Assembly: GCF_000023065.1 (NCBI RefSeq)
Contig: NC_012691.1
Location: 2,462,501 to 2,526,500 of the forward strand
Source: Tolumonas auensis DSM 9187
GTDB lineage: Bacteria; Pseudomonadota; Gammaproteobacteria; Enterobacterales; Aeromonadaceae
DNA: 64,000 nucleotides
Reading direction: 5' to 3'
Part shown: positions 17,435-48,551 of the stretch, piece by piece
How positions within the stretch are numbered: position 1 is the stretch's first letter
How the letters are laid out: each line of letters opens with the position of its first letter
Position numbers and translations under genes: made by a program
Notes under the pieces: model-generated
Told to the model about the DNA's origin: nothing
Databases searched by the model: none
Seen by the model: the letters and a program-made list of their open reading frames with translations, nothing else

Positions 17435-17454
17435 TAAATTTATTCACTGCCCTC

Positions 17455-17482: not shown

Positions 17483-17517
17483 CAAAGTCAGTTTATCTGC
17501 AGTGGAGTCTGCCCGGT

Positions 17518-21432: not shown

Positions 21433-21466
21433 AACCCGCGCAGCATAAGGCTTCGCGGGTTTTTTA
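21433..21466 (+). terminator. ssrA Rho-independent terminator
   Basis: AACCCGCG and CGCGGGTT form a perfect stem around a 13-base loop, followed by a T-run and ATTGTC. A near copy lies at 48198-48231. Confidence 0.85.
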
Positions 21467-21512
21467 TTGTCCGATGTAATCCACAATAGTTCACCTAGAG
21501 CCAATAAAAATA

Positions 21513-23680: not shown

Positions 23681-23710
23681 TGTAGTAACCAAATTAATTT
23701 GGTTACTACA
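23681..23710. repeat. 30-bp perfect palindrome at the 3' end of the HerA gene
   Basis: The sequence from 23681 to 23710 is its own reverse complement, core ACCAAATTAATTTGGT, without a spacer. It spans the HerA stop codon (23706-23708) and separates the SIR2-HerA block from the HEPN/MNT pair. As RNA it would form a hairpin; as DNA it could bind a dimeric protein. Confidence 0.85.
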
Positions 23711-25490
23711 TGTTGCTTTCATTGCTCCACAACTTCATTAAATTAACATCCTCACTATCTGGCTGTTTTTCTCTTTCTAACAGATCAACCTGTAGAACCA
23801 TGGGGAGATCAAATGAGGTTCCTGTCACAATGCAACACCCACGAGATAAGTTAGGTATCATATTCCTCGATATACTATCTAATGTGCTGATTGAATTATC
23901 TATAAGTTGTAAATCTCTCTCATTGACTAACCTATGGATAAAGAAGTTATGCACTTGTGAAATAATAGTTGGAGAAATATCTGCGGGGCGCTGACTTGAT
24001 AAAGTCAGAAAAAATCCGAACTTTCTCCCCTCTTTAATAATCTCTTCAAATTGTTCTAAGCGATAGTCTTTCCAGCTTTCACTTTCACGAGTTGACTGAT
24101 GAGATAAAATATTATGCGCTTCATCAATGATCAAATGAACTGTATTTTTCGGCGGATTATCAACATTATCCCTGTGAGGATGATAATAGTGCTTCGCAAT
24201 TAGCAATGGGAGTACTTTCTTTATACTTTGATTGCACTTTCTAAATGAGATAATTGTAACAGTTTTTTTATTGACTTCTTCATCCACCACAGAAATAACT
24301 TTTTTAAGTGCATTTAGAGATGCGTCTATTCTTTTTAATAATGGCTGAATAAACTCATATTGAACATAGCCAAAAATCAAATCGTTAATTAGCTGCAAGT
24401 CACAACGAAGCTTTAGTTCCTCGAAAGCATCTATCGTTTTTAGTTTCAAGCTGTCGACTTTAGACTTAAATACTAAGTTATAACCATTAGATTCTGAATT
24501 AAAGTAAACCGTAGAACCACCAAACAAGCAATAAAAATTTGATCGAGTAGTGTTCCAACCAACAGACTTCAATAAGATGTTTATATCATCCAACTCCAAC
24601 AAACTAGCTACATTTCTAACCAAATCCAATGAGTCAGCCTTGGGTTGCGCCGCGGTAAATATTCTTTCAAATGTTTTCTTTAAATAAATCTCCAAGCTAT
24701 TATCTATGCTTTTATATTTATCCTTGCTGTTAATTATTCTATTTATAAATGGCTTTTGAGTATTGGCAGTAGCCTGAAATAGAATGCAAAGTGATTCCAA
24801 ACTCCAGAATTCATTTTTAGATAGTGGGAATTTATCTGATTCATCTTTTGTGTTTAGATTGTAAATGGTTTTGTATTTTTTAGATACCAGTTGATTGGTT
24901 GCGTACTCTCCATTAAAATCCACTACAACAAACCTACTTTTCCCGCAAATTTGTTCAATTTTATGTTCAAATAAAGTAGTATATAACTTTGTTAACGTAT
25001 TTGATTTCCCACTACCAGTATTGCCAAAAACACCAATATGAGTATTAAATAATTTATCCCACTTCAAAGAGATTGGTATTTCTTCTTTCAATAACCGACC
25101 TATTATGAAATCTTCGTCCACTGGTTTACCATAAATATCTGAAACTCTCTCTTCCTCAAGAAGATATACTCTATCTTTGATAAGAGGCAGGTACTTGATA
25201 CCCTCGAAAAAAACTCCCTTTTCAAAATAACCTATTGGTTTTAGCTCTACTCTCCTAATATAATATCTCTTTTCTTCATTATCTTCATAACGTTTCTCAT
25301 CAAGAAACTCTCCCTCAACAAGACAAATAATTTCTTTAAATCCGCGCTCTATTTTTACGAACTCTCTGATTGATATACCTTTTAATAATTTCCCACCGTA
25401 GAATAAAGTATCTTTGTTAGATTCCTCATAAAGTCTAGCCGTGACAGTTACACCATTTACGCCAACTACCTCACCAACCAATATAGACAT
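23706..25490 (-). CDS. HerA-type ATPase of a SIR2-HerA defence system
   Basis: A 594-residue protein: N-terminal HAS-barrel (MSILVGEVVGVNGVTVTARL), then a HerA/FtsK-type ATPase with Walker A GNTGSGKS at 156-163, VVVDFNGEY, Walker B HLIIDEAHNIL at about 455, and the HerA-typical LSSQRPADISPTIISQVHNFFIHRL with sensor and arginine residues. HerA ATPases form hexameric rings. It begins 9 bases after the SIR2 gene, with GGTGG before the ATG. SIR2+HerA pairs (also called Nezha) are known anti-phage systems that act by NAD depletion or DNA degradation. Markedly A+T-rich compared with hsdR. Recognition of the family is firm; activity is inferred. Confidence 0.88.
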   Translation of the reverse strand: MSILVGEVVGVNGVTVTARLYEESNKDTLFYGGKLLKGISIREFVKIERGFKEIICLVEGEFLDEKRYEDNEEKRYYIRRVELKPIGYFEKGVFFEGIKYLPLIKDRVYLLEEERVSDIYGKPVDEDFIIGRLLKEEIPISLKWDKLFNTHIGVFGNTGSGKSNTLTKLYTTLFEHKIEQICGKSRFVVVDFNGEYATNQLVSKKYKTIYNLNTKDESDKFPLSKNEFWSLESLCILFQATANTQKPFINRIINSKDKYKSIDNSLEIYLKKTFERIFTAAQPKADSLDLVRNVASLLELDDINILLKSVGWNTTRSNFYCLFGGSTVYFNSESNGYNLVFKSKVDSLKLKTIDAFEELKLRCDLQLINDLIFGYVQYEFIQPLLKRIDASLNALKKVISVVDEEVNKKTVTIISFRKCNQSIKKVLPLLIAKHYYHPHRDNVDNPPKNTVHLIIDEAHNILSHQSTRESESWKDYRLEQFEEIIKEGRKFGFFLTLSSQRPADISPTIISQVHNFFIHRLVNERDLQLIDNSISTLDSISRNMIPNLSRGCCIVTGTSFDLPMVLQVDLLEREKQPDSEDVNLMKLWSNESNM

Positions 25491-25499
25491 ATTTCCACC

Positions 25500-26648
25500 C
25501 TACACCAAAGGGGTAATAGAAAAAACATTATTATTGAATTCGCTGAAGTTTAAGTTTTGTTCGATCTTAATAAACTTAACATTGGCATATTCAGCAAAAT
25601 AGCTTTTCATCTTTGAAAGCTGGGAATCATCAAAACAGCATATATACATTGTAAGATAATTGTTGGATAGAGACCTTTTAACTAAATGTCTAATATGTTC
25701 ATCTGCAAATGAAAAACCAAAAACAATTAATGTCGATTGTCTTTTTTCTAACTGGTAACTCATATACCTTAGCATTTGATAGTAATGCTCCTCAAATACT
25801 GTTTCATAAAACTTCCATTTTGTGGGATTAACAATTGGAAGTTTATTGTACTTAACCCAGAATTCCTTTTCTATTTCGTCAAAATCAGAGGAGAATTCAA
25901 TTTTTAGCTCTTCTTTTTTTGAGTCAGATTTTTTAATAAAAGATTTAAATATTTTCAATTCGCTTTCTGGAAATCGCTCAATCAATCTATCATTATTGTT
26001 ATTATGGTATTGGACTTCTATTGATTCACCTTTCTTTCTCCAATAAGCAGATCCATGCAGGTGAATAATGTTTACCTGAGGAACTATAGTGGCATTCTTA
26101 TCAAAAGTGCTTTTCCTAACCTGTATTGAATCAAAATTTCTAGCTTCGACCACTTTTCGCTTAAAACCATTTGACCCGTCATTTAAATTTAACTGAGTTT
26201 TATTTTCTTCAAGCAACTCTTCGTAAGCTTCAACAAAACAAGAATCATAATTGGTTGTAAATATATTAACCTTTTTTTCTTGATGATGTTTTTTATCCAA
26301 AATAGAAAACAGTGTAAATAATAGCGCTTTGTAATTACTCATTACCTCTAATTCAATTCTATCATCAAAGTCAATATGCCAACCTTTGTTTTCGCTCCAG
26401 TTAAATTTCATTACAGGCTCAATACATTCTTTGTAATAGTACATGAACAATAGAGAGTTTAAATTTTTTTTGTTTTTTGATTCAAAATAATGAGCAAGCG
26501 TTTCGATGGTTTCATAATTGCCATTTTCATCTTTCATTTGTGTTGCCAATGTTGGAAACAACCCAAATGAAGCTCCAGCACCAAATAAAAAATTTAAATC
26601 CTGCTCGTATATCTTACTTATATCTATTTTATTTATAATTTCGGACAT
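25500..26648 (-). CDS. SIR2-like NADase of a SIR2-HerA defence system
   Basis: A 382-residue SIR2-family protein with the NAD-binding GAGAS at 23-27, TTNYD at 131-135 and the catalytic-histidine motif HLHGS (His198), plus VFGFSFADEHIR near 320, typical of SIR2_2 defence effectors. The Rossmann elements are intact, so NAD hydrolysis is plausible. It is followed by HerA after 9 bases and starts 29 bases after hsdR, same strand, so it may ride on the R-M transcript. A+T-rich like HerA, unlike hsdR, suggesting the pair arrived as a unit. Confidence 0.87.
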   Translation of the reverse strand: MSEIINKIDISKIYEQDLNFLFGAGASFGLFPTLATQMKDENGNYETIETLAHYFESKNKKNLNSLLFMYYYKECIEPVMKFNWSENKGWHIDFDDRIELEVMSNYKALLFTLFSILDKKHHQEKKVNIFTTNYDSCFVEAYEELLEENKTQLNLNDGSNGFKRKVVEARNFDSIQVRKSTFDKNATIVPQVNIIHLHGSAYWRKKGESIEVQYHNNNNDRLIERFPESELKIFKSFIKKSDSKKEELKIEFSSDFDEIEKEFWVKYNKLPIVNPTKWKFYETVFEEHYYQMLRYMSYQLEKRQSTLIVFGFSFADEHIRHLVKRSLSNNYLTMYICCFDDSQLSKMKSYFAEYANVKFIKIEQNLNFSEFNNNVFSITPLV

Positions 26649-26677
26649 ATTGTTCTCACTTCTTATCTAATAAACCA

Positions 26678-29600
26678 TCACACCCCAACCATTCTCTGCA
26701 CGCTTTGCATCCATGATGTTTTAAATGCTGCATCGTTGGCGAACAGCTTGTAGAGCTCCAATTCATCTTTACGGCGCAGTAGCATCACTTCTTTCAAGAT
26801 CTTTTCGAATGCCAGTTCGCGGTTGATTGGGTCAGGGTTGTTCTGATATTTCGCTTCGAAATCAGGGTGTTTTTTCACGCTGTCGGCGATGTTCACGAAC
26901 TTCACTTTTTGCTCTTCTGGCGTTGAGCTCCAGCCTTGGAACCATTTCTCGTTGAAGTTATTGATGATCGCGTCCAGCGGATCTGTCTCGACATCACCGC
27001 CATGCCCACCACGCGGGTTCGGGTTCTGCGGGTCAACGGTGGTTTCTTGTGCATCTAAATCAATGGTGTAATTCAGTTTGACGCGCTGTAGGCCGTAAGA
27101 GGCCAGATCGACTGAGTTGAGCAGTTCATCCAGCAGATCGCTTTCTGGATCTTGTACTTTCAGTTTCGGGATCAGGAATTTGAGGAACCAGAACAGTTTC
27201 TCCCACAACAACATGTCGTAAGGAATAATCGATGCCATCTGGCCGTAGATTTTTACGAACTGCTTGGCTTTGATTTTAAAATCAACTTGCTCTGCGTTGG
27301 TGAGTTCCAGCTCTTGATTGAAGCGCTCGGCAGCGACATCGATAATGCCGCTGAGTAGTTGGGCGTCATCGCCTTTGAAATAACGCTGAACGAACTCTTC
27401 GACTTCATACCACTCATACACGCCCACGTCATCGAGCGCGTCTTTTAGCTCATGCAACACGTTAATGTCGGTCGCCTGTGATAATGATGTCGCAGTGTAA
27501 AACGGGTCGAAGGCGGCCTTGATATCATCCACCGCATTAAAGAAATCGAGAATAAATAAATCTTCGGTTTTCTTACCCCATTTCGGTGCTGCTCGGTTCA
27601 AACGTGATAATGCTTGCACGCAAAGCACACCAGCCAGTTTTTTATCGACATACATCGCGCAGAGTTTCGGCTGATCGAACCCTGTCAGATATTTGTTCGC
27701 GACAATCAGCAGGCGGTATTCATCAGTATCAAATTTATCGCGGGTGTCATTTTCAGCAAAACCATTCAGATCAGCTTCGGTATATTCAATGCCATCGACC
27801 TCTTTTGTGCCTGAGAATGCGATCAGAACTTTGAAAGGGTTGCCTATCGCGTCGAGCTGTTTGGTAATGGCTTTGAAATAACGAATGGCAGACACGATGT
27901 TCTGCGTCACCACCATCCCCTTGCCTTTCCCTTTCAGCTTCTTGGCATTCACAACATGCGGAATAAAATGCTCCAGCATGATTTCGGCTTTCACATTAAT
28001 GGTTTCCTGACTGCCTTCGACATATGCACGTAACTTCTTCTGTGCCTTTTTACTGTCGAATTGCGGATTGTCTTCGACCGATTTACTGATTTCGTAATAA
28101 CTGCGATAGGTGGTGTAATTCGCCACCACATCCAGAATAAAGCCTTCTTCGATGGCCTGTTTCATTGAATACAGGTGGAATGGCCGATAGCTGCCATCTT
28201 CCTGTCGCTGACCGAACTTCTCTAATGTGGTGTTCTTCGGTGTTGCTGTGAACGCCAGATAAGAGGCATTGCCCCGCATCTTGCGTGATAGCATCGACTG
28301 CAAGATCAGATCTTGAATATCTTCAGCTTCTTCTTCCGTTTTCCCCATCGCTTCGTTCATTTTGCTGTGCGCGGTGCCCGATTGTGAGCTGTGCGCTTCG
28401 TCGATGATCACGGCAAAACGTTTGTCGCTGAGGTCGCTAATGCCATCAACAATGAACGGGAATTTCTGGATGGTGGTGATGATGATCTTCTTGCCATTTT
28501 CGAGGGCCGATTTCAGCTCTGATGATTTATTCGCTGGCGCAATGATGTTTTTCACCTCAGAGAACTCTTTGATGTTCTCTCTGAGCTGTTTATCTAGCAG
28601 GCGGCGGTCAGTCACGACAATCACAGAATCAAATAACGGCTGATCGATGCCATGACTGCCATGCACATCATTGGTTGCTGGGTACGCCTCTATCAGTTGA
28701 TAGGCGGCCCATGTGATCGAGTTTGATTTGCCTGAACCGGCAGAGTGTTGGATCAGATAGGTGTGCCCGACACCATAATGTGCGGCATGATCGACCAGCC
28801 TGCGCACCACATCAAGCTGGTGATAACGGGGGAAGAACAGGGTGCGTTTGTTGAGTAAGTCTTTCGATGAGCCATCTAAACGCACAAAGTGCTGAATGAT
28901 GTTGGCCAGACTCACTTTGGTGAAGACCTCTTCCCACAGATAGGCCGTTTTGTGGCCGAACAGGTTGGGTGGGTTGCCCTGACCGTGATTATTGCCTTTA
29001 TTAAATGGCAGGAAGAAGGTCTCTTTACCAGCCAGTTTGGTGGTCATATAGACTTCATCGGTATCCACCGCCATATGCACCAGACAACGGCCAAAGTTCA
29101 GCAAAGGCTGATTGATGTCGCGATCTTCACGGTATTGTTTCTGGCCGTGGTAACGCGCGGTTTGACCCGTCCACGCGTTTTTCAGTTCGAGTGTCACCAG
29201 CGGGATGCCGTTAATAAACAGCACCATATCAATTTCTTGCAACGGGTTGAGTTGCGAGTAACACACCTGTCGGGTGCAACTGAAAATATTCGCGGTGAAA
29301 TTCTGTTTCACTGCCTGACTGCTGCTGGCGAGTGGCGCCGGATACATCAGGGTCAGGTAAGCATCATCCACACTTAAGCCTTTCTTGAGCAGATGCAGCA
29401 CACCGTGTTTTTTGATCAGACGGTCGAAACGCTCTAACACTTTGCGCTGCCAGTCGTTGGCATGATGCACTTTCAGCTTAGCTAATTCTTCAGCTTGCGT
29501 GTTTTCAAGAAACTGCCAGAACAAGCGTAAATCGAGGGCATATTGCTTATCGATATCAGCCGGAAAACCTTGCTGGAAACCATTATGCTGGGTGATATAA

Positions 29601-29707
29601 GCACCAGCAGGTTCATTAATACCCGCTTTCACCTCTTCCATACACAGGCCGGTTAAGGCTTTCTCTATGGCTGCTTCCAGCGCTTGTTCGTTGGTGTGGC
29701 TTACCAT
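26678..29707 (-). CDS. hsdR: type I restriction enzyme, R subunit (HsdR)
   Basis: The 1009-residue motor/nuclease subunit. The N-terminal nuclease region has EIDMVLFINGIPLVTLELKN, a PD-(D/E)xK-like core with ELK; the helicase has Walker A HSAGSGKSNSI (about 325), DEAH in IIDEAHSSQSG, the SAT-like LAFTATPKNTT and motif VI region QALSRLNR; a helical C-terminal domain follows for HsdM contact. It cleaves DNA after translocation when HsdS sites are unmethylated. AGGGAG precedes the ATG. Last gene of hsdM-hsdS-fic-hsdR. Confidence 0.95.
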   Translation of the reverse strand: MVSHTNEQALEAAIEKALTGLCMEEVKAGINEPAGAYITQHNGFQQGFPADIDKQYALDLRLFWQFLENTQAEELAKLKVHHANDWQRKVLERFDRLIKKHGVLHLLKKGLSVDDAYLTLMYPAPLASSSQAVKQNFTANIFSCTRQVCYSQLNPLQEIDMVLFINGIPLVTLELKNAWTGQTARYHGQKQYREDRDINQPLLNFGRCLVHMAVDTDEVYMTTKLAGKETFFLPFNKGNNHGQGNPPNLFGHKTAYLWEEVFTKVSLANIIQHFVRLDGSSKDLLNKRTLFFPRYHQLDVVRRLVDHAAHYGVGHTYLIQHSAGSGKSNSITWAAYQLIEAYPATNDVHGSHGIDQPLFDSVIVVTDRRLLDKQLRENIKEFSEVKNIIAPANKSSELKSALENGKKIIITTIQKFPFIVDGISDLSDKRFAVIIDEAHSSQSGTAHSKMNEAMGKTEEEAEDIQDLILQSMLSRKMRGNASYLAFTATPKNTTLEKFGQRQEDGSYRPFHLYSMKQAIEEGFILDVVANYTTYRSYYEISKSVEDNPQFDSKKAQKKLRAYVEGSQETINVKAEIMLEHFIPHVVNAKKLKGKGKGMVVTQNIVSAIRYFKAITKQLDAIGNPFKVLIAFSGTKEVDGIEYTEADLNGFAENDTRDKFDTDEYRLLIVANKYLTGFDQPKLCAMYVDKKLAGVLCVQALSRLNRAAPKWGKKTEDLFILDFFNAVDDIKAAFDPFYTATSLSQATDINVLHELKDALDDVGVYEWYEVEEFVQRYFKGDDAQLLSGIIDVAAERFNQELELTNAEQVDFKIKAKQFVKIYGQMASIIPYDMLLWEKLFWFLKFLIPKLKVQDPESDLLDELLNSVDLASYGLQRVKLNYTIDLDAQETTVDPQNPNPRGGHGGDVETDPLDAIINNFNEKWFQGWSSTPEEQKVKFVNIADSVKKHPDFEAKYQNNPDPINRELAFEKILKEVMLLRRKDELELYKLFANDAAFKTSWMQSVQRMVGV

Positions 29708-29724
29708 GTTTTCTCCCTGATTTT

Positions 29725-30720
29725 TTATTCTTGTATAACCTGCCAGTAACCATCTTTTTTCGGCCCGATAAACGCTATACGGCCTTGTGTTTTCAGCTTG
29801 GCAACGGCGCGTTCGACGGTCGTGACTGATTTTTCTATCTGCTGTGCGACCTCGGCCAAACTCATTTGCGGATGCTCGCTTAACAAAGCCAAGATCAGTT
29901 CCGGCGTTTGTACCCGCGTTTGTACCCGCGTTTGTACCCGCGTTTTTTCGGTATCAGGTTGGGTGTTAATGGCTTCTTGCAGGCTGTCTTCTATCGCTTG
30001 CAGCAAAAATTCGATAAAAGCCGAACAATCGCTTTTCTGATCAGATTCGGTCAGTAATTGGTAATAGGTTTGCTGGCGATGTTTGATAACGGTTTCAACC
30101 GGCAGGAACGCCAGCATCGGCTGCCAGTGGCTTAAAATAAGCGTTTGCCATAAGCGCCCGATGCGGCCATTGCCATCACCAAACGGGTGAATAAATTCAA
30201 ACTCGTAATGAAAGGCCGCCGAGGCAATCAGCGGGTGGGCATCGGTGTTGGCTAGCCAAGCGAACAGATCGGCCATGAGGCGTGGAATTTGGCTGGCTGG
30301 TGGGGCCATATGTACGAGTTGCTCACCGCGATAGATGCCCGCCCCTTTGCTGCGCCAGTGGCCTGCGTCATCAATCAGGCCATGCAGTAATAAGGCGTGT
30401 GCGGCCAGTAAGTCGTCGATGTGCTGCGGGTGCCAGCGCTCTAACGCTTCATAAGCGGTAAAGGCATTGCGCACCTCCTGAATCTCTTTTGGCAGGCCCA
30501 GCACGGTTTTGCCTTCGATTACCGCCGTTACCTGTTCCAGTGTCAGCGTGTTTTGCTCGACTGCCAGCGATGCCTGAATGGTTTTAATACGGTTGCCACG
30601 GCGCAGCTCGGGCACCAACTGGTTTTGATTAGCCGCCTTCCATGTGCCAATCAGTTCGCCGATGTGGGCCACATGGCGCATCATGGTGTGGGTGAGCTGA
30701 AACGGTGGCTGATAGCTCAT
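29725..30720 (-). CDS. Fic-domain protein inserted in the R-M operon
   Basis: A 331-residue Fic-family protein. The N-terminal part has the inhibitory-type segment ASLAVEQNTLTLEQVTAVIEG: the regulatory Glu of the (S/T)xxxE(G/N) motif is kept but the last position is Gln. The Fic core has HPFGDGNGRIGR starting at His178, the complete AMP-transfer loop. A short repeat region RVQTRVQTRVQT (about 260-272) is followed by a C-terminal winged-helix DNA-binding domain (LSLAEVAQQIEKSVTTVERAVAK-like). Fic enzymes AMPylate protein hydroxyls. Fic genes are recurrently found between hsdS and hsdR; the role there is not established. Confidence 0.93.
   Translation of the reverse strand: MSYQPPFQLTHTMMRHVAHIGELIGTWKAANQNQLVPELRRGNRIKTIQASLAVEQNTLTLEQVTAVIEGKTVLGLPKEIQEVRNAFTAYEALERWHPQHIDDLLAAHALLLHGLIDDAGHWRSKGAGIYRGEQLVHMAPPASQIPRLMADLFAWLANTDAHPLIASAAFHYEFEFIHPFGDGNGRIGRLWQTLILSHWQPMLAFLPVETVIKHRQQTYYQLLTESDQKSDCSAFIEFLLQAIEDSLQEAINTQPDTEKTRVQTRVQTRVQTPELILALLSEHPQMSLAEVAQQIEKSVTTVERAVAKLKTQGRIAFIGPKKDGYWQVIQE
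29904..29945 (-). repeat. 12-bp tandem repeat in the fic gene
   Basis: Three perfect copies of GCGTTTGTACCC (plus-strand reading, 29904-29939) plus a partial fourth encode (RVQT) repeats between the Fic and winged-helix domains. A 12-base unit lets the linker lengthen or shorten without a frameshift. Confidence 0.9.
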
Positions 30721-30722
30721 GG

Positions 30723-31988
30723 TTACACCACTTTGATTTTGCCGGTAACGGCGCTGTTAATGAGAGTGGTTTTGTATTCCTGATATTTAGTGATCTGCCC
30801 AATAAATATCTCTGTTGCTTTATTTATCTCATCGACCTTAGATTGAATTGCTGAAAATATCGCGCGCTGTTCATCAATAGGCGGAATGAATAAATCAACC
30901 TGAGAAAAATTATCAAAATTCAAATCTTGCCCATCACGGATAAAACTTGCCGTCATTTGTAAGGCATTAATGTAACTGGGTAGTTTTAGTAAATAACTAA
31001 AAAACCCCGCGTCTATCTCTTCAGAATTTACAGGCCGTAACACGACATAAGAGGATCGAATACACCCAGAGGCCCAAGCCCTCTCGAGACCACCTTGAAA
31101 ACTACGCATGCTGATAACAAAGTCATTTATTTCTACATGTTTTCGTTTGTCTAAATGAAAAGAAATTTTAACAACCTTTCTACCAACCATTTCCTCATAT
31201 TGCTCTTGAGGAATGACACCATAGGCTTGAGTTGCGGACAACTGAACATCATTTGATCTAGCTCTTTCTTTTCGCTGACAAAAAACAAATCTACTTCGAC
31301 GAACTTCCCAATGCGCCGGAATCTTCCCAATCCATTCCACACCAGAGTCTTTCATCGGCACAGTCGGGTCTAAGCCTTGTGTGACAGCCTGTTGAATGAT
31401 GATCTGTTTGCGTTCTTTCAGCAGTTCAATTTGCTTTTCTTTGATGGCAATCGCTTCGTCGATTTTGGCTGTTTTTTCATCGAGGAAATTAGCGATGGCG
31501 GTTTGAGCTTCTAATGGCGGAAACGTGACAAAAATCTCTGCCATTTCGCCATTCATTATTTTTGCACCGTTTGTATCAGGTCTCTTGTAAAATTGAGCCG
31601 CAATTGATAATGCGTTTTTTAAAAACTCTAGACTTATTTTCTGCTTGTTAATTGGTTGCAATGTACCGCAAACATTTGTGCAATTATGCTTACCTTTTCG
31701 AAGAAAGACGGTTCCTGCATTGGCACCATCTGTCGTCCAAGTAATTTGCTCACAATCAAAATCAAAAGTTGATATGTATCCTAGTATCCCATCATTTTGA
31801 GTCTGAGATGAATACACTGGATAACACCCATTATCATCAAGTTCTTGCTGCGAGATAACACGCCCTCGACCAATACGGAACAAATATTTTACTTTTCGAG
31901 TGCTCCATTCTTCTGGTATTTCTCCTAACCAATCAACACCAGAATCTTTATACGCCTCATACTTCGGCATTACAGTGAACGTCGTCAT
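30723..31988 (-). CDS. hsdS: type I restriction-modification specificity subunit (HsdS)
   Basis: A 421-residue DNA-recognition subunit with two target-recognition domains, each opened by the standard motif (DSGVDWLGEIPEEWSTRKV at about 12-30 and DSGVEWIGKIPAHWEVRRS at about 213-231) and each followed by a helical spacer (EKTAKIDEAIAIKEKQIELLKERKQ and the C-terminal equivalent). The two half-sites cannot be read from sequence. AGGAG precedes the ATG; it is 15 bases after hsdM and its stop is 2 bases before fic. Confidence 0.95.
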   Translation of the reverse strand: MTTFTVMPKYEAYKDSGVDWLGEIPEEWSTRKVKYLFRIGRGRVISQQELDDNGCYPVYSSQTQNDGILGYISTFDFDCEQITWTTDGANAGTVFLRKGKHNCTNVCGTLQPINKQKISLEFLKNALSIAAQFYKRPDTNGAKIMNGEMAEIFVTFPPLEAQTAIANFLDEKTAKIDEAIAIKEKQIELLKERKQIIIQQAVTQGLDPTVPMKDSGVEWIGKIPAHWEVRRSRFVFCQRKERARSNDVQLSATQAYGVIPQEQYEEMVGRKVVKISFHLDKRKHVEINDFVISMRSFQGGLERAWASGCIRSSYVVLRPVNSEEIDAGFFSYLLKLPSYINALQMTASFIRDGQDLNFDNFSQVDLFIPPIDEQRAIFSAIQSKVDEINKATEIFIGQITKYQEYKTTLINSAVTGKIKVV

Positions 31989-32003
31989 GCTTGCGTCTCC
32001 TGC

Positions 32004-34397
32004 CTATACCGTTGCCGAGTGGGTTGTCAGCCCTAAAATCTGCGCAATCAGACCATCGGCCTGTTTTTCCAGATCAATGATTTCTTGTGCCACCGCTTCA
32101 AGTTTACGCAGTGGTTTATGGCGGTAGAAATATTTATTAAAGCTGATTTCACAGCCAATCTTCACCGATTCCATATTCAGCCAAGCTTCAGCAACATGCG
32201 GTTTTACTTCATCAAGGAAATACTGATAGATGCTCTGTTTCAGTGGCACGGACTCGGTGTCGCGCAAATCGCTGCTGCTTTCATACGTGACGAATTCGCC
32301 TTTCTTGCCATGCGGGTAATAACCAAAATCAGGCAGGTCGCCCTCTTCGCAGCTATAGAGTTCCAGTAATTCCGCCAGTTTATCAGCAGAGAGTTTGAGC
32401 ACCTTCTTCACCACTTTTTCTGCGGTTTCGTCATACCAGCTCACGGCATTTAAAATGGCATTCTTTTCGGGCGCGGATAGTTTCAAACTGCTGGCTTTCA
32501 GTGCTGCATCGACCTTGTCTTTAAACAGATTGAAATCGGTAAACTCAGCCTCACCCACACCTTCCATCAGCGTTTGTGCGGCATCGAGTAACTTGCGTGA
32601 ACTGAGCCAGAAAGCGGTATCGAGCAGCTTTTCTTTGGCTTTGTTATTTAAGCTGATGTCGTTTTTCTCGCACCAATCGGTAATGTGTTTACCCTGTTCT
32701 GCCAAGAAACCAGCTTGATAGACCTTGTCGTTATATTCGCCATAGCAATATTCCATCGCTTCGCTGAGTGATTTGTCAAAACGCAGCGGCGCAATGCGCT
32801 CGGCGCTGAACTGCGCTTTACGGCGATCAGGGCGCTCGACGGTGACTTTGAAATAACCGAAATCTTCGTTATTGAAAATTTTACTGGCTAAACCGATGGC
32901 GTCGCCATTGGCATCAAGCTGGCGTTCCACCTCGTTAAATTCAAGGTAGGTTTGCATGATTTCGGCGATATGTTCCGGCGCAAATTCGCAGTTTTTATTG
33001 CCTAAATTTTTACGCAGTTTGCGGAATAACTGACTGGCATCGATCAGTTGCACTTTCCCTTTGCGGCGTTCTGGTTTGTTGTTGTTCAGCAACCAGATAT
33101 AGGTGGTGATTCCGGTGTTATAGAAGAGGTTATTCGGCAGTTGCACGATGGCTTCGAGCATGTCGTTTTCAATCAGATAACGGCGGATGTTACTTTCACC
33201 ACCACCGGCATCGCCGGTAAACAGGCTTGAACCGTTATGCACCGAGGCGATACGGCTGCCAATGGTGCCATTAACCGGCGCCTTCATCTTGCTGACCATT
33301 TCCATCAGAAACAGCAATTGCCCGTCACTGGAACGTGGCGTGGCATCACTGCCTTTCGCATCCACTTTGCCCCAGTAATCAGTCAACTGCACTTTAAAGC
33401 GCGGGTCGATGACCTCGGTTCCCTCTTTAATATTTTTCTGCTCCGACGCCCAGCTTTTGCCATAGGGCGGGTTTGAGAGCATAAAGTCGAACCGCATGTG
33501 CGAGAATTCATCGGTCGAGAGGGTTGAGCCGATTTTGATATTGGCGGGATCATTGCCCTTGATCATCATGTCTGACTTACAAATCGCGTAAGTCTCGTCG
33601 TTGATCTCTTTGCCGTAGAGGTGAATGTCGCGGCTCGCACCCACTGCCGGATATTTCTCTTCAATGAAGTTCTGCGATTCGGTAAGCATGCCACCACTGC
33701 CACAGGCGGGGTCGTAGATGGTCATGGTGAGCGGTAACTGATCTTTGAGCGGGTCAAACACCAGATGCGTCATCAGCTCGATCACTTCACGCGGGGTAAA
33801 GTGTTCGCCCGCCTCTTCGTTGTTCTCTTCGTTAAATTTACGGATCAACTCTTCAAACACATAACCCATGCCGAGGTTGGTCAGTGCCGGAAGTTTGTTG
33901 CCAGAGGCATCTTCGCATTCCTGCGGTGTCAGGTTGATGTTGGGTGAAATGAACTTTTCCACCACATCGAGCAACACCTGTTTTTCAGCCATATGGCGGA
34001 TCTGCGATTTCAGGTTAAAACGCCCAACGATCTCTTTGACGTTGTCGCTAAAACCATTCAGGTATTCATTAAAATTCTGCAACAAGATCTGCTGATTATT
34101 GGTGGCCGCCGCATGTAGGGTTTTCAGCGTCCATTTCGAGATGTTGTAAAACACATAACCCGATGCCGCTTTTAATGGCTCGTCATCCAGTTCCACCGCG
34201 TTCATTTCTTCCTGCTGGAAACGAACCTCTTCCAACACCGCTTCTTTCGATGGCTCAAGCAAGGTGTCTAAACGGCGCAGCACCACCATCGGCAGAATCA
34301 CGTCACGGTATTTGCCACGCACATAGACATCCCGCAGGCAGTCGTCGGCGATGCTCCAGATGAAAGAAACCAGTTTGTTGTGAACGCTGTGATCCAT
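32004..34397 (-). CDS. hsdM: type I restriction-modification DNA methyltransferase (HsdM)
   Basis: A 797-residue N6-adenine methyltransferase subunit. It has the HsdM N-terminal helical domain, the SAM-binding motif IYDPACGSGGMLTES near 235-250, and the catalytic NPPYG (MLSNPPYGKSW) near 310. It is longer than classical EcoKI HsdM (529 aa); the extra C-terminal 250 residues are charged and helical, as in a known long subfamily. AGGATAAC precedes the ATG. First structural gene of the R-M cluster, 43 bases after the WYL regulator. Confidence 0.95.
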   Translation of the reverse strand: MDHSVHNKLVSFIWSIADDCLRDVYVRGKYRDVILPMVVLRRLDTLLEPSKEAVLEEVRFQQEEMNAVELDDEPLKAASGYVFYNISKWTLKTLHAAATNNQQILLQNFNEYLNGFSDNVKEIVGRFNLKSQIRHMAEKQVLLDVVEKFISPNINLTPQECEDASGNKLPALTNLGMGYVFEELIRKFNEENNEEAGEHFTPREVIELMTHLVFDPLKDQLPLTMTIYDPACGSGGMLTESQNFIEEKYPAVGASRDIHLYGKEINDETYAICKSDMMIKGNDPANIKIGSTLSTDEFSHMRFDFMLSNPPYGKSWASEQKNIKEGTEVIDPRFKVQLTDYWGKVDAKGSDATPRSSDGQLLFLMEMVSKMKAPVNGTIGSRIASVHNGSSLFTGDAGGGESNIRRYLIENDMLEAIVQLPNNLFYNTGITTYIWLLNNNKPERRKGKVQLIDASQLFRKLRKNLGNKNCEFAPEHIAEIMQTYLEFNEVERQLDANGDAIGLASKIFNNEDFGYFKVTVERPDRRKAQFSAERIAPLRFDKSLSEAMEYCYGEYNDKVYQAGFLAEQGKHITDWCEKNDISLNNKAKEKLLDTAFWLSSRKLLDAAQTLMEGVGEAEFTDFNLFKDKVDAALKASSLKLSAPEKNAILNAVSWYDETAEKVVKKVLKLSADKLAELLELYSCEEGDLPDFGYYPHGKKGEFVTYESSSDLRDTESVPLKQSIYQYFLDEVKPHVAEAWLNMESVKIGCEISFNKYFYRHKPLRKLEAVAQEIIDLEKQADGLIAQILGLTTHSATV

Positions 34398-40155: not shown

Positions 40156-41106
40156 ATGGCTCATGAAATATCATCCATGGCTTATATCGGTGCAACACCA
40201 TGGCACGGTTTAGGCAATCAACTCACCGAACAACAACCAATTAATATCTGGCTTAAAGAGGCGGGTATGGATTGGTCTATTCAACAGTCGGACGTTTTAT
40301 TTAATGCGGACTCTGCTGCGTTAAATATTCGTTCTCATTCCGATGCCAAGGTACTTTATCGTTCTGATTCGTTAGAGCCGTTATCGGTGGTCTCCAATCG
40401 TTATAAAGTCGTGCAGCCGCATGAGGTGCTGAACTTTTATAAAGACTTGGTGTCTGTCGGTGGTTTTGAATTAGAAACGGCGGGGGTATTAAAAGGCGGG
40501 CGTAAACTCTGGGCGTTAGCGAAAACCGGTCAAGAAGCACGCATTAAAGGCAATGACCGTATTAAAGCCTATCTGTTATTAGCCACCAGTTGTGACGGTA
40601 CGTTATGTACGACCGCGCAATTCACCTCAGTTCGCGTGGTGTGTAATAACACCTTGCAGATGGCAACGCGGGAGAGCTCCGGTGCCGTGAAAATACCGCA
40701 CTCCACCAAGTTTGACCCAATGCAGGTGAAAGAAGCATTAGGGCTGGGCTTTTCCAATTGGGATGCGTTTATGCGCAATCTCAAGCAGTTGGGACAGCGC
40801 TCTGTATCGCCGGAGGAAGCAGACCAATATTTACGTATTGTGTTGAATGAACCGGAGTACAGCGAAGCCAATGCCGATTCCAAAATCTTCCAGAAAGTGA
40901 GTGGTTTGTATCTGGGGGAAGGCATGGGGTCAGATTACTCGGCTGCCAGTGGCACGGCGTGGGGGTTACTGAATGCGGTCACGGAATATGTCGACCATCA
41001 TCGTCGAGCACGCAATCAAGACAATCGCCTTGATTCCGCTTGGTTTGGTCAGGGCGCACAACTGAAACACAAAGCGTTAGAACAGGCGTTAACGCTCGTT
41101 CACTGA
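40156..41106 (+). CDS. DUF932 phage/plasmid-like protein
   Basis: A 316-residue member of the DUF932 (TIGR03299) family, seen as YfjQ/YafZ in CP4-type islands and in conjugative elements. It begins MAHEISSMAYIGATPWHGLGNQL, the standard opening, and includes SVVSNRYKVVQPHEVLNFY, KLWALAKTG and RVVCNNTLQMA. Function is not established; its constant partners are recombination genes. AAGGAATATATTT precedes the ATG. G+C-richer than the gene to its left. An attenuator-like terminator separates it from the exonuclease. Confidence 0.9.
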   Translation: MAHEISSMAYIGATPWHGLGNQLTEQQPINIWLKEAGMDWSIQQSDVLFNADSAALNIRSHSDAKVLYRSDSLEPLSVVSNRYKVVQPHEVLNFYKDLVSVGGFELETAGVLKGGRKLWALAKTGQEARIKGNDRIKAYLLLATSCDGTLCTTAQFTSVRVVCNNTLQMATRESSGAVKIPHSTKFDPMQVKEALGLGFSNWDAFMRNLKQLGQRSVSPEEADQYLRIVLNEPEYSEANADSKIFQKVSGLYLGEGMGSDYSAASGTAWGLLNAVTEYVDHHRRARNQDNRLDSAWFGQGAQLKHKALEQALTLVH

Positions 41107-41145
41107 TTTATTTTCTTTATCCCCTTTATTCCATTCATTCAGTAG

Positions 41146-41174
41146 CCCCGAACGGCCTTGCCCTCGGGGTTTTT
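41146..41174 (+). terminator. Rho-independent terminator between DUF932 and YqaJ genes
   Basis: CCCCGA/TCGGGG stem with a 12-base loop followed by TTTTT, 17 bases ahead of the next ATG; may act as an attenuator within the block. Confidence 0.75.
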
Positions 41175-41190
41175 CATTTCTGGAGTTTCT

Positions 41191-42174
41191 ATGAAAGCAC
41201 GTTATTACCAAGCCATTCGGTTGGCCTCGACCACTGATTTAGGCCGTGAAGCATGGTTGAAAATCAGAGCGCAAGGGATTGGTTCTTCGGATGCAGCAGT
41301 AGCCGTGGGGCTATCGCCGTATAAAAGCCCGTTATCGCTGTGGCTTGAGAAAACCAATCGTAAGCCAGCCGCGGATTTATCCGAGAAGGAAGCCGTGATT
41401 TGGGGAACGGTGTTAGAGCCGGTATTAGCCAAAGTGTATGCCGCCAGAACAGGCCGACGTGTACGACGGGTCAATGCGGTACTTCAGCATCCAGATTATC
41501 CGTTCATGTTGGCGAACCTTGACCGTGAAGTGGTGGGTAAAGCAGATTGCGGGATATTGGAAATTAAAACGGCGGGTTATCACTCGGCACCTCAATGGGA
41601 AGACGGGATACCGATTGCTTACCAATGTCAGGTATTACATCAATTGGCGGTGACGGGTCATGCGTGGGCCGATGTAGCGGTGTTGATTGGTGGGCAGGAT
41701 TTTCGGATTTATCGTATTGAACGCGATGATGACAAAATTGCGGATTTAATCGAACGGGAGTCGCAGTTCTGGGCCTGTGTGCAAGACAACCGACAACCTG
41801 AGCCCGATGGCTCTGATGATGCAGGCAAAGCACTGTTATCCCTGTTTCCAGCGGATAACGGTCAAACGCTCGATTTATCGGAGTCGCCGGAATACAACCA
41901 ACTGTTTGCCGAATTACTCAATTTACGTGAACAGAAGGAAGTCGCTGAGCGCAAAGAGTCCGAAATCAAACAACGCATTCAAGTGGCGTTAGGCACCTGT
42001 ACGGCGGCGTTATTCCAACAAGGCAAAGTCACTTGGCGCAAAGCCAAAGACCGGCTGGTAGCTGATGTCGATAAAATCAGTCAAGAACACCCTGAGTTGA
42101 TCCAACAATATTGCAAACCTGTTCCGGGCTCGCGTCGCTTCACCATTCAAACCACTGCTCATCCTTCTCATTAA
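41191..42174 (+). CDS. YqaJ-family viral recombinase (lambda exonuclease-like)
   Basis: A 327-residue nuclease of the lambda-exonuclease/RecB superfamily. It has IRAQGIGSSDAAVAVGLSPY near 25, the early active-site segment, WGTVLEPVLAKVYAARTG, and the metal/catalytic core ANLDREV then ILEIKTA (D, E-x-K), followed by YQCQVLHQLAVTG. A C-terminal helical extension follows after residue 230. GGAG lies 6 bases before the ATG at 41191; an earlier in-frame codon crosses the terminator. It would resect double-strand ends for single-strand annealing, but no clear annealase gene is beside it. Confidence 0.9.
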   Translation: MKARYYQAIRLASTTDLGREAWLKIRAQGIGSSDAAVAVGLSPYKSPLSLWLEKTNRKPAADLSEKEAVIWGTVLEPVLAKVYAARTGRRVRRVNAVLQHPDYPFMLANLDREVVGKADCGILEIKTAGYHSAPQWEDGIPIAYQCQVLHQLAVTGHAWADVAVLIGGQDFRIYRIERDDDKIADLIERESQFWACVQDNRQPEPDGSDDAGKALLSLFPADNGQTLDLSESPEYNQLFAELLNLREQKEVAERKESEIKQRIQVALGTCTAALFQQGKVTWRKAKDRLVADVDKISQEHPELIQQYCKPVPGSRRFTIQTTAHPSH

Positions 42175-42192
42175 CCCATATTAGGAGTCCGT

Positions 42193-43125
42193 ATGATTAA
42201 AGGACTGGCAATTACCCCGCCCGTTATCGGGCGTATCTCGATTGGCCGTTTAGTGTGTAAAAACGATAAATGGCTACCGGAAAAAGACGATAGTTTTACC
42301 TTAACCACACAAATCAAAAACAAGGGGGAATGGTTACTGCACCCGCTGCATCAAAAACTCTCAGAGGCCGCGCCGAATCAGAAAATTCGCGCGATACCGG
42401 TTCGGATGCTGTTTAATGACACCGACTTAAATCTGCGTGCGGAATACAGTGCGTTTGACCGACAAACCGGACGACCGCTGTGTGTTGGCGATGGAGAGAA
42501 AGCCCGACGAGTGAGTGCAGCCGGTGGCACAGAAGAACAGCCTTGTGCGGGCCCGCAGTTTTGCCCGTATGCGCGAGAACATGGTTGCAAATTGTATGGC
42601 CGATTGAATGTGCAGGTTGATGGTCAAGGCGATGAGTTAGGCAGTTTCATCTTCCGAACAACCGGTTATAACTCGGTGCGAACCTTAGCCGCCCGTCTGC
42701 AATACTTTCAGGCATTGAGCGGCGGTAATACGCGTTATCTGCCCTTACTGCTCAAGCTTCGCGCCAAGACCACCACACTGTCGTATCAAACACCGGTGTA
42801 TTACGTGGACCTTACTTTGCGGGAAGGTGCGGAGCTTGCCACTACCATCAGCCAAGCCAAAGACGCTGCTGAATCCGATTTAGAGGCGGGTTTAGGCATG
42901 ATTGAACTGGAGCATACAGCCCGACAATTGCTGCAAAACGGCCAGTTCGAAGACTCGGAGGAAGAAATACCATTGGTCATGGAAGAGTTCTATCCTGACG
43001 GACCAGTTCACGATGACAAAACGGCTGTTTTCACTCATCAGATAGCCAGTGAACAGCCTATTCAACAGCGGAGAAAAACAACGTTAACGCCTAAATTGGG
43101 GAAACAGGCTAATACAACCAATTAA
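42193..43125 (+). CDS. putative metal-binding protein / recombination directionality factor-like
   Basis: A 310-residue protein of the family usually annotated 'hydrolase or metal-binding protein' and related to phage recombination directionality factor-like proteins. The centre carries a cysteine cluster (PCAGPQFCPYAREHGCKLYG, three Cys within 16 residues) that could bind zinc, followed by GSFIFRTTGYNSVRTLAARL. The C-terminal 60 residues are acidic and poorly ordered. AGGAGTCCGT precedes the ATG, 18 bases after the exonuclease. The DUF932-YqaJ-this-protein trio recurs in integrative and conjugative elements. Exact function unknown. Confidence 0.7.
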   Translation: MIKGLAITPPVIGRISIGRLVCKNDKWLPEKDDSFTLTTQIKNKGEWLLHPLHQKLSEAAPNQKIRAIPVRMLFNDTDLNLRAEYSAFDRQTGRPLCVGDGEKARRVSAAGGTEEQPCAGPQFCPYAREHGCKLYGRLNVQVDGQGDELGSFIFRTTGYNSVRTLAARLQYFQALSGGNTRYLPLLLKLRAKTTTLSYQTPVYYVDLTLREGAELATTISQAKDAAESDLEAGLGMIELEHTARQLLQNGQFEDSEEEIPLVMEEFYPDGPVHDDKTAVFTHQIASEQPIQQRRKTTLTPKLGKQANTTN

Positions 43126-44757: not shown

Positions 44758-45267
44758 ATGGAAATCGCAGACCACATCATTACCTATCAGGGTGATGTTC
44801 CACAGCACGGTATTTACGCAGGAGAAAACAATGTTATTTATTTTGATAGCAAAAATACTCGTTCAATTCTTGTTGAAAATATGGACCATTTTTGTCAGCA
44901 GAAAGGATGCTTTATCCGCAATTATCCGTTCCGCCCGTATGCGAGGCCGGAAAGTTTAGACAGAGCATTTGAACAGATGAGTAAGATGACAGAACACCCG
45001 TTTTCTTCAGATGAACAGTTTGTTGCGTGGTGTATTAAAGGTGATTTAAACCCCAAAACACACCGTAGTGGCAGGAACGAACACGAAGAGGAAATCATTA
45101 AAATGACAATCAAGAAAATTCTAACATCCGCAGTGGATGTGCTGGCGCAGCACCCAAAATGGCAACAACAAGCCGAGACCGCCAATAAATATTTGCCCGT
45201 TATCATCGGTTCTATTCAGTTGGGGATAGAGATAAAAAAGATGGTGGATGCCAAGAAGCAGTTGTAG
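44758..45267 (+). CDS. LRAT-like (NlpC/P60-superfamily) domain protein, probably catalytically altered
   Basis: A 169-residue protein. The first 105 residues resemble the LRAT/H-rev107 fold: ADHIITYQGDVPQHGIYAGENNVIYF matches the GDHI...HHGIYVG...VIHF opening with the conserved His, and DEQFVAWCIKGD aligns with NCEHFAxWCxxG. The catalytic Cys of NCEHF is replaced by Asp, so classic acyltransferase/hydrolase activity is doubtful; the later Cys in WC is kept. A helical C-terminal part (residues 115-169) has no known domain. GAGG precedes the ATG by 8 bases. The family assignment rests on motif reading only. Confidence 0.65.
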   Translation: MEIADHIITYQGDVPQHGIYAGENNVIYFDSKNTRSILVENMDHFCQQKGCFIRNYPFRPYARPESLDRAFEQMSKMTEHPFSSDEQFVAWCIKGDLNPKTHRSGRNEHEEEIIKMTIKKILTSAVDVLAQHPKWQQQAETANKYLPVIIGSIQLGIEIKKMVDAKKQL

Positions 45268-45314: not shown

Positions 45315-45445
45315 GTTGGAACATTCTTTTTTTATTCTAAGTTGTTTTTGGACAAAAATGAGTTAAGGGTTTACGTAAGTCAGCTTTGTAAGACTTGGGG
45401 GGGAGATGTATCGTGACAATAAGCCTTAAGTTGCCCAATAGTAGA

Positions 45446-45463
45446 AAGCCCCATACGGGGCTT
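45446..45463 (-). terminator. terminator of the three-gene operon
   Basis: AAGCCCC/GGGGCTT 7-bp perfect stem with a 4-base loop; on the minus strand it is followed by TTTCTAC and lies 10 bases after the stop of the last gene. Confidence 0.65.
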
Positions 45464-45473: not shown

Positions 45474-46277
45474 TTAGTTAATGTCTTTCAACGATGGAAT
45501 AGTCTTTCCATCACTGGCAATTGAAAGTGGCGCACCAGCATCAGTAATATGAAAACGCTCTAAATGATTTTCGATGAATTTTTGACCTTGATTGGTCAGC
45601 CTGTCAATGCTTTGGTTTAAGCTAACAATGTCTCTATTCAGTTCTTCTAGGAAACGAGTTGAAGTATGAATAATGTTACCCATTTTAGTATCAACAGCTC
45701 GAATTAGAATGTCTTTTGCTCTTTCATTATCACCAAATTTATCTTCGATTCTAATGAAATCGTTCATCGCTTCTTCGATTGCGGTATTTTGAAGTTGTTT
45801 ATACTGAATGGTTTTTTCATAAACAAGCTGTTGAGCACGTTCCTTTAGCTCAAGTTGCATATGACCTATCGCATTGATTGTTTCAACGTTTAGCTTCGTT
45901 AACTGTTCAAGATAAAGAGCAATAGCTACGGTAGTGCGCTCCATTCGCTCAAACTCTTTTTCTTTTTTCCATTCTTGGATTTCGGCGACTGCCTTTTCGA
46001 TTTCACGAACTCTACGGACCTCAAGATCTACGTCTAGCTCTTTCTCTTTTGCCCTTAGTTCATGTTCAAGCTCCATCTCCTTTGTTCTGATTTCGTGTTC
46101 AGAACGTTTTTGAGCAGTTAATGTATCCATGTTGCGTTTATGTTCAGATTCTCTTGAGGATTCGCTCCTTTCGTGAGATCTGGATTTTAAAGGCTCACTA
46201 GCCCATTCACATAAAACATCTACTGGTTTGCTGATACAATTGAGCAATGCACCACCAATACGACTAAATATCCCCAT
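45474..46277 (-). CDS. unknown coiled-coil protein (third gene of an unrecognised operon)
   Basis: A 267-residue protein of no recognised family. It opens with a possible amphipathic or membrane-peripheral helix (MGIFSRIGGALLNCISKPVD), then a long highly charged coiled coil at about 35-115 (KEMELEHELRAKEKELDVDL), a second helical region, and a Thr/Asn-rich stretch with LNRDIVSLNQSIDRLTNQGQ. Its start overlaps the preceding gene by 14 bases. No enzymatic motif is visible. Confidence 0.78.
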   Translation of the reverse strand: MGIFSRIGGALLNCISKPVDVLCEWASEPLKSRSHERSESSRESEHKRNMDTLTAQKRSEHEIRTKEMELEHELRAKEKELDVDLEVRRVREIEKAVAEIQEWKKEKEFERMERTTVAIALYLEQLTKLNVETINAIGHMQLELKERAQQLVYEKTIQYKQLQNTAIEEAMNDFIRIEDKFGDNERAKDILIRAVDTKMGNIIHTSTRFLEELNRDIVSLNQSIDRLTNQGQKFIENHLERFHITDAGAPLSIASDGKTIPSLKDIN

Positions 46278-46881
46278 TTTGTTCTCCTAAAAGTCTATTA
46301 AATTCTCTTTCAAAGAGAACTTGATCTTTCCTTCTTATGTAATTGATTTCTTCAAGCCTATCTTTATCTTTATCAAAGATTGAGAATATCTTTTCGATTT
46401 GTTTTACTTTATCTTCCAAAAAGAATGAGTCTATACAAGATGTGCTTTTTGACTGTTTGAAGCTTACAAATTCTTCTGTGATATGCTTTAACTTTCTCTG
46501 CGTAACTTCATCATTTATATCAGTTATACGGATTGAAAGTTTTTCCAGATTGGCATTAATAAATATTGAATATTCTCTTTCAAATGAGAGTGATAAAAGG
46601 TTTTCATTCTTTTCATATTGGAAGAAAGACGAATAGAGTTGAGGATCTTCATTAACACTTCGAAAAACTAGGTCTTCCCTTGCCTCTCGTAAAGCTGTTA
46701 GTAGCTCCATCATGACGGTTGGAGCCACTTTCGATTCTGCTAGTTTATCTTGCATGATTCTATATAACACTCGCAATAAATGTTCTCTGGTTCTCTTGCC
46801 TAAATCTTCGTGAACAGCTTTGAGTTGCTTGACTAAGTGAAGCACACAAACCAGATGCTTTATGTGAGTGTCATATTCCAT
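46264..46881 (-). CDS. unknown helical protein (second gene of an unrecognised operon)
   Basis: A 205-residue, mostly helical and charged protein with no recognised domain. The N-terminal half (HIKHLVCVLHLVKQLKAVHE, then TREHLLRVLYRIMQDKL) looks like a helical bundle; the second half has KVKQIEKIFSIFDKDKDRLE. Its ATG shares a base with the stop of the upstream gene (TAATG), and its own end overlaps the next gene by 14 bases, so translation of all three is coupled. Confidence 0.75.
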   Translation of the reverse strand: MEYDTHIKHLVCVLHLVKQLKAVHEDLGKRTREHLLRVLYRIMQDKLAESKVAPTVMMELLTALREAREDLVFRSVNEDPQLYSSFFQYEKNENLLSLSFEREYSIFINANLEKLSIRITDINDEVTQRKLKHITEEFVSFKQSKSTSCIDSFFLEDKVKQIEKIFSIFDKDKDRLEEINYIRRKDQVLFEREFNRLLGEQNGDI

Positions 46882-47351
46882 TAATGGTTATCACTAGAGG
46901 CGACAGAAGGCTTATTCAACTTAGCCTCAGCACGAATCTTACCGATAGTATCAAGTGTATGTTCTTCAATTAGGCTGCTGCTAAGATCTAGGCTCTTGGT
47001 GTAACTATCAACAAGTTCTTTGAGCCATTTTGATGCAACATCACCATCAACCTGAGATTCGCTTAGAGTATGGGAAACTTCTTTTAATGTTTCAGAGAAG
47101 AATTTTGATCGCTCTTTACGTAAATCTTCTTGCAAGGTAGAAGCAAACTTGATTTCCTCTTTGTATTCTTTGACGAGTTCCAGATAGTTTTTTTCGAAGT
47201 TGTATAATACTTCTAACTTGGTCTTTAATAGTTCGAGATTTACGTAGCCACTCAGTTCTTTCTTAAGGGATTCAGTCAATTGAGATTTGATTGAGTCATC
47301 CGCACCTGATTCTTTTACAGCCGATGCGATTAGTTGGTTCAGATCTGTCAT
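46881..47351 (-). CDS. unknown helical protein (first gene of an unrecognised operon)
   Basis: A 156-residue acidic, helical protein starting MTDLNQLIASAVKESGADDS. No domain recognised; a central region (KLEVLYNFEKNYLELVKEYK) could be coiled coil. The ATG at 47351 is preferred because GGAAAG lies about 6 bases upstream; the frame stays open to 47420 but that part contains the promoter. First of three coupled genes. Confidence 0.75.
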   Translation of the reverse strand: MTDLNQLIASAVKESGADDSIKSQLTESLKKELSGYVNLELLKTKLEVLYNFEKNYLELVKEYKEEIKFASTLQEDLRKERSKFFSETLKEVSHTLSESQVDGDVASKWLKELVDSYTKSLDLSSSLIEEHTLDTIGKIRAEAKLNKPSVASSDNH

Positions 47352-48197: not shown

Positions 48198-48231
48198 AAC
48201 CCGCTAGCTGAAAGGCTTTGCGGGTTTTTTA
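48198..48231 (+). terminator. displaced copy of the ssrA terminator
   Basis: AACCCGC/GCGGGTT stem with the shared loop end (AAGGCTT) and the tail GGGTTTTTTATTGTC, nearly identical to the terminator at 21433-21466. It is probably the original chromosomal ssrA terminator, displaced by integration. Confidence 0.8.
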
Positions 48232-48551
48232 TTGTCTAGTGGTTTTCATTAACTCTCATTAGAATCCGCACTTTTTAGGTATATGTTTAGGCATATCTCT
48301 TCCACATCGACAGCCAGCCGTTATTCCCAAAGGAACATGCTCAGCATGTGGTGCTCCTAACTCACTGATCAGCCTGTATTGCAACACGGCTAACTCTTTT
48401 GAAAACAATCATTATTTTTCTCAGAATGCGAGACAGATACCATCCCGACTGCGTTGGCCGTCAATTAAAGTTAATTTTGGTGATGTAAGTTTGATTCAGG
48501 GAGGATTAGGTCTGTTATAACAAAGACTCAGTGAACCACAGGAGAGCACTT

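Follow-up and report, generated by a model that had tools for sequence, protein, structure and literature searches.

Three overlapping genes on the reverse strand of the window (the whole stretch of 64,000 nucleotides of Tolumonas auensis DSM 9187 that was analysed) form a fixed accessory module that moves as a unit between chromosomal islands, plasmids and integrons. The copy in the window sits in an exchangeable slot of a genomic island, and the same slot is filled by defence systems in sister islands. The trio is a good candidate defence system because it is located where related elements carry anti-virus defences, and an anti-phage role is regarded here as fairly probable. The features that this analysis was concerned with are collected in Table 1.

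Table 1. Coordinates, in window positions, of the three genes and of the island that carries them
Feature	Positions	Strand	Basis or remark
Gene 1 (P0001)	46881..47351	-	156 aa; acidic two-helix hairpin (predicted)
Gene 2 (P0002)	46264..46881	-	205 aa ORF
Gene 3 (P0003)	45474..46277	-	267 aa
Gene 3 residues 5-31, predicted amphipathic helix	46185..46265	-	Hydrophobic moment, AlphaFold2; start MGIFSR in the window copy
Terminator-like hairpin AAGCCCC GTAT GGGGCTT	45441..45463	-	3' of gene 3, by eye; weak T tract
Left attachment repeat	21447..21471	.	End of tmRNA gene, at its terminator; 24/25 identical to 48212-48236
Right attachment repeat	48212..48236	.	25-bp repeat, 24 identical to left
Island tyrosine integrase	21579..22826	+	Pfam PF00589
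Other defence cargo: HerA, SIR2, type I restriction (R, S, M), Fic	23706..34397	-	Pfam, PADLOC; left part of island
Island core: DUF932, YqaJ recombinase, RDF-like protein	40156..43125	+	Query for sister islands
169-aa ORF	44758..45267	+	Most sister islands, other genera included, keep it at the cargo border
Left border of exchangeable cargo	45337..45365	.	Sister islands L030 and L028 diverge here

Organisation and products of the three genes

The first-pass annotation had described three leftward genes of 156, 205 and 267 residues, joined by a TAATG junction and a 14-base overlap, and the sizes, the positions and both junctions were found as claimed. Genes 1 and 2 have a single base in common within TAATG, genes 2 and 3 overlap by 14 bases, and AGGAG is found just upstream of the ATG of gene 3. 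The G+C content of the trio is 36.5%, that of the neighbouring part of the island is 42% and that of the flanking chromosome is about 47-50%. The promoter-like signals that were also claimed for the operon were not borne out, since the promoter scan returned 5 sites against the 7.7 expected by chance; the nearest upstream same-strand promoter-like site lies about 270 nt before gene 1. The terminator claim survives in part. A hairpin follows gene 3 by eye, and Citrobacter (L009) has a similar one in the corresponding place, but the window hairpin has a weak T tract and is absent from the list of the consensus scan.

The statement that none of the proteins matches a known family was upheld by every sequence library used. 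Nothing in Pfam or NCBIfam exceeded the curated cut-offs, PHROGs gave nothing credible, the PDB contained no relative by sequence, and PADLOC-DB gave no specific match; only gene 1 had a hit there, of coiled-coil type, to an MTase_I tail (E 0.0023). None of the three had, by sequence, a homologue among housekeeping or phage-structural proteins, no catalytic domain was recognised in the trio, and profile comparisons among the three genes gave no internal duplication. The weak sequence matches that did appear (STIM/SOAR, SlyX, EF-hand, uS15 and similar) were below cut-offs and were rejected as coiled-coil or chance matches. PGAP names the plasmid homologues of gene 1 (for example L004:3258-3737) "nickel transporter". 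This identity was also rejected, as the protein has no transporter domain in Pfam or NCBIfam and is an acidic helical hairpin; the label is likely a propagated naming error.

The three genes differ in their rate of divergence. Gene 1 is the most conserved, with 39-94% identity to its homologues, and gene 3 (38-93%) decays in step with it. Gene 2 diverges much faster than either, with 17-89% identity overall and 17-27% identity to distant homologues. All three evolve under purifying selection, and the dN/dS values against a 93%-identical copy (L015) are 0.07, 0.11 and 0.10 for genes 1, 2 and 3. Conservation is poor over the first 42 residues of gene 2, which are absent or out of frame in other copies. 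Because this N-terminal part is out of frame in L008 and L015, the conserved core of gene 2, as judged from the sequences, probably starts near Met-43 (46755-46264) and comprises about 163 residues, so that the 205-residue length is probably inflated.

AlphaFold2 models of genes 1 and 3 were built from alignments of 9 sequences. The earlier claim that all the products are helical agrees with the models of these two genes, which are the ones covered. The gene 1 model is a two-helix hairpin (pLDDT 77.5). The gene 3 model (pLDDT 73.5) has a short N-terminal helix, a helix of 139 residues (42-180) and a return helix of 59 residues (185-243). Foldseek searches with both models gave no significant match and no known effector fold. 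A membrane-binding helix at the start of gene 3 is possible, in that the amphipathic segment is kept in 11 of 11 homologues, with a maximum hydrophobic moment of 0.50-0.65; the model predicts this helix (residues 6-31) at low confidence, with block pLDDT values of 40-59.

The same N-terminal segment suggests an alternative. The trio could be an envelope-stress or membrane-maintenance module of the PspA/Vipp1 kind, which would help the host or the mobile element and would not act against phages. Gene 3 begins with MGIFSR and a predicted amphipathic helix, like host PspA, and VIPP1 chains were at the top of the PDB fold search for gene 3, at non-significant E values of 0.19-0.9. This reading is distinctly unlikely, for several reasons. 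First, PF04012 does not match gene 3 up to E 1. Secondly, the profile comparison aligns residues 1-31 only, with a probability of 5.7%. Third, the top VIPP1/PspA matches reach a TM score of at most 0.31 (0.30 for the top VIPP1 chains), in a comparison with a monomer model of only moderate confidence. Lastly, the MGIFSR letters are lost in distant homologues of gene 3. Membership of gene 3 in the PspA family was therefore rejected on Pfam, profile-profile and fold comparison, the likeness stopping at residue 31.

A further alternative comes from the fold searches against viral proteins. T7-like internal virion proteins were among the non-significant matches of gene 3 in the viral library (E 0.04-0.9), and T7 particle chains were among the weak fold matches of genes 1 and 3. 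The trio might on this basis be a set of phage-structural or ejection-type proteins, either a prophage remnant or a mimic of T7-like internal virion proteins. We consider this most improbable, since a search of 50,697 phage genomes gave no sequence match for any of the three genes, PHROGs gave nothing credible, a single IMG/VR contig carries a relative, and fold searches are biased by long helices. A phage-structural origin was rejected on the phage genomes and the PHROGs, neither of which gave a credible sequence match to genes 1-3. The LXG/Lap-type secretion trio and the T7 ejection proteins were likewise set aside as candidates, because they gave only non-significant fold matches and long helices attract chance matches.

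The exchangeable slot in the Tolumonas island

The trio lies in an island at ssrA. The 25-bp attachment repeats at 21447 and 48212 place the limits of the island at 21447-48236 (26.8 kb) and make the trio its last cargo before the right repeat. The island had been called CP4-57-type, and the integrase, AlpA, a YfjJ-like protein and the repeats, with 24 of 25 bases identical, are in accord with this. In the left part of the island, SIR2 and HerA genes stand in one run with the type I restriction subunits and a Fic gene (23706-34397). Beside AlpA, a 585-residue open reading frame (38261-40018) has no Pfam match above cut-off and shows a weak Csm6/CARF-like similarity (E 0.0065). The 169-residue protein (44758-45267) has a weak LRAT-like match (E 0.03).

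Sister islands were retrieved through the DUF932-YqaJ-RDF core. Two islands from the same genus, L030 and L028, match the window at 97% identity as far as 45365 in one case and at 95% as far as 45337 in the other. Their identity ends about 110-140 bp from the trio, and other genes lie beyond, Druantia II in one case. The proposal that the trio occupies a cargo position was supported. As a raw count, PADLOC identified defence genes to the right of the core in 13 of 18 same-core islands. These comprised type I restriction (5), type III restriction (3), a type II methylase (1), CBASS (2), Dpd (1) and Druantia II (1). Four of the 18 had no clear defence gene within the part scanned, and in one (L044) the cargo region holds an apparent arsenic-resistance cluster, named by eye.

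Two other observations were made in the sister islands. A pair of proteins of about 406-409 and 670-692 residues is found near the cargo slot in L028 (6582-7802 and 8113-10191) and in L033 (8633-9862 and 6482-8494); three of these four proteins were scanned against PADLOC and gave no match. In two islands of another genus, the cargo region carries CBASS with a patatin-like effector and a DrmD-like helicase (L036:5749-13034 and L039:5575-12851).

Occurrence on plasmids, in other phyla and in integrons

The trio is rare and patchy. It was found in 12 distinct contexts when all ColE1 plasmids are counted as one. In draws of 296 and 398 genomes it was present in the window's own genome only, in a third draw, from the class, it was present in 2 of 369 genomes, and among the 11 genomes of the genus that were searched the other 10 were without it. 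In E. coli it was found in 15 of 5,426 genomes and was plasmid-borne every time. When 84,980 species genomes were scanned, complete trios with the genes in order were also found in Shewanella, Citrobacter, Pseudoalteromonas, Colwellia, Methylomonas, Sulfurovum (Campylobacterota) and Desulfobacter (Desulfobacterota). The scans of viral contigs gave a sole relative, the 93% copy on L015, a contig of the IMG/VR viral collection. The trio is thus conserved outside the Tolumonas genome in several phyla, and in several cases it adjoins defence genes. For example, a type II restriction system lies upstream of the trio in Shewanella (L008); no known defence gene was found in the stretches looked at in L009, L012, L013 and L014. 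In a gammaproteobacterium (L065) the trio is near relaxase-like and primase-like genes, named by eye.

Gene order is 1-2-3 in every context except an Azospirillum plasmid, where it is 3-1-2 with gaps. The first-pass annotation had concluded from the tight coupling that the products form a complex of fixed stoichiometry; coupling does not prove such a complex, given the Azospirillum arrangement. Two observations concern the surroundings of single copies. Near the trio in L065, a run of four genes (14934-18782) has weak similarity to ZorA (E 7e-6), and a direct repeat of about 0.2 kb (L014:9267-9468 and 11503-11704) lies downstream of the Desulfobacter trio.

Searches of plasmids by tblastn identified gene 1 in 19 records, gene 2 in 16 and gene 3 in 17. 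Most of these are ColE1-like mobilizable plasmids of E. coli and Salmonella (about 17, of about 5.4 kb) with identical order and the same 14-base overlap, and some copies are broken or partial. The ColE1-like plasmids pSe-Kan, pSBardo-Kan and pO111-110512_6, which fall in two plasmid groups, have been reported to carry three low-G+C open reading frames to which no function was assigned (PMC9282650). These frames are direct homologues of genes 1, 2 and 3 (71%, 57% and 77% identity), with the gene order and the 14-base overlap unchanged; the published account does not link them to chromosomal islands, integrons or other phyla. The trio had been called unrecognised. This holds in that it belongs to no known family, but it is not quite right, because that paper (PMC9282650) had already noted the plasmid copies, as "3 ORFs of unknown function". 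No functional description of them was found in the open-licence literature.

In sister ColE1 plasmids, with backbones about 93-96% identical, the slot of the trio is taken by a type II restriction system (two plasmids), by colicin E1 together with immunity and exclusion genes, or by ParA-like genes. Since the slot also hosts colicin E1 and exclusion genes, the trio might serve plasmid biology or competition, as an entry-exclusion, bacteriocin or immunity module. The cargo of these sister plasmids (colicin E1 with immunity, Exc-type proteins or ParA) fits such a role. We consider it very unlikely, as no lysis gene or colicin domain was recognised and plasmid functions are of no use in the chromosomal islands and integrons that also carry the trio. 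The cargo of sister elements nevertheless includes arsenic-resistance-like (L044), colicin and ParA-like genes, and position by itself is no proof of defence.

In two genera the trio is an integron cassette. In Sulfurovum (L013) it is flanked by a core site GTTAGGT (531) and an attC site (2247-2310), the outer boxes of which are perfectly complementary once the cassette is closed. The bottom strand of this attC folds at -32.2 kcal/mol, compared with -13.5+-2.8 in shuffles, and another attC of the array has the same core. The divergent open reading frame beside the trio is a fragment of an IntI4-like integrase (2-304, minus strand, E 6e-21), and the trio is in the first cassette position, adjoining IntI. 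Further attC-like sites are found downstream (L013:3875-3959 and 4661-4731), and the second is very stable (-38.3 kcal/mol). In Pseudoalteromonas (L010), GTTAGGC precedes gene 1 and an attC (3121-3222) overlaps the end of gene 3, with a fold of -45.8 against -18.4+-3.1 for shuffles; the contig is too short to show an integrase. L011 has the upstream box only. The trio of the window has no downstream RYYYAAC/GTTRRRY pair and no attC.

Addiction modules are common in integron cassettes and small plasmids. The trio could accordingly be a toxin-antitoxin module in which one protein, gene 3 at the membrane, would be a toxin held by the others, stabilising the carrier element. Its small overlapping genes and predicted membrane-targeted helical protein are consistent with this. 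Several points argue against it: no toxin or antitoxin family was matched, ColE1 plasmids are multicopy and have little need of stabilisation, and three conserved genes with a long coiled coil last would be an unusual layout. A toxin-antitoxin module is on balance rather unlikely.

Proposed mechanism and comparison with known systems

The reading we prefer is a mobile accessory antiphage module with a division of roles among its genes, and as a whole it stands slightly better than an even chance. The division of roles and the action at the membrane are put forward tentatively. Gene 3 would be the effector, bound to the inner membrane by the amphipathic helix at its N terminus, with a long coiled-coil rod projecting from there. 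Gene 1, which is conserved like gene 3 and forms an acidic hairpin of helices in the model, may hold or assemble the effector. Gene 2 is the putative sensor or specificity part, which would detect a signal of infection, because it is the fastest evolving of the three. Once triggered, the assembly made by genes 1 and 3 would alter the membrane and stop phage production by abortive infection, and the carrier cell would be protected against phages or competing elements. A bolder version is doubtful. It would be a wholly new defence without a known enzymatic domain. Triggered by the gene 2 sensor, a membrane-anchored coiled-coil assembly made by genes 1 and 3 would either disable the membrane or keep the phage genome out, possibly by mimicking podophage ejection proteins, and the system would spread across phyla as a three-gene integron cassette. 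In the open-licence literature nothing specific was found on an antiphage operon of three genes with coiled coils or on an abortive system resembling PspA.

If the trio defends, it is a new system made of three families that none of the searched libraries of defence systems, phages or domains contains. As it also has no recognisable enzyme, such annotation tools would miss it. Small transferable plasmids of E. coli and Salmonella already carry it, and it has crossed phyla, twice as an integron cassette. Even if it is not a defence, it is a conserved, selected and mobile unit in enteric plasmids.

The trio can be compared with three sets of known systems. First, Druantia II, type I and type III restriction, Dpd and CBASS occupy the same cargo region of DUF932-YqaJ-RDF islands, but they have no protein family in common with the trio, which is without a recognisable nuclease, helicase, methylase or cyclase. 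Secondly, gene 3 resembles PspA/Vipp1 (bacterial ESCRT-III, PF04012) in that an N-terminal MGIFSR segment, a predicted amphipathic helix, is followed by long helices, but gene 3 has one 139-residue helix and a return helix in place of the ESCRT-III series of hairpins, and the trio has two extra conserved partner genes. Third, integron cassettes are known to serve as a reservoir for antiphage genes, and a review notes that the integrons studied contained no defence system with more than two genes (PMC12409362). The Sulfurovum and Pseudoalteromonas trios resemble these antiphage cassettes in lying in cassettes with attC sites, and differ in that three genes, with an antiphage role that is only predicted, are placed in one cassette. 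If that role is correct, integrons would be shown to be able to carry a three-gene defence unit.
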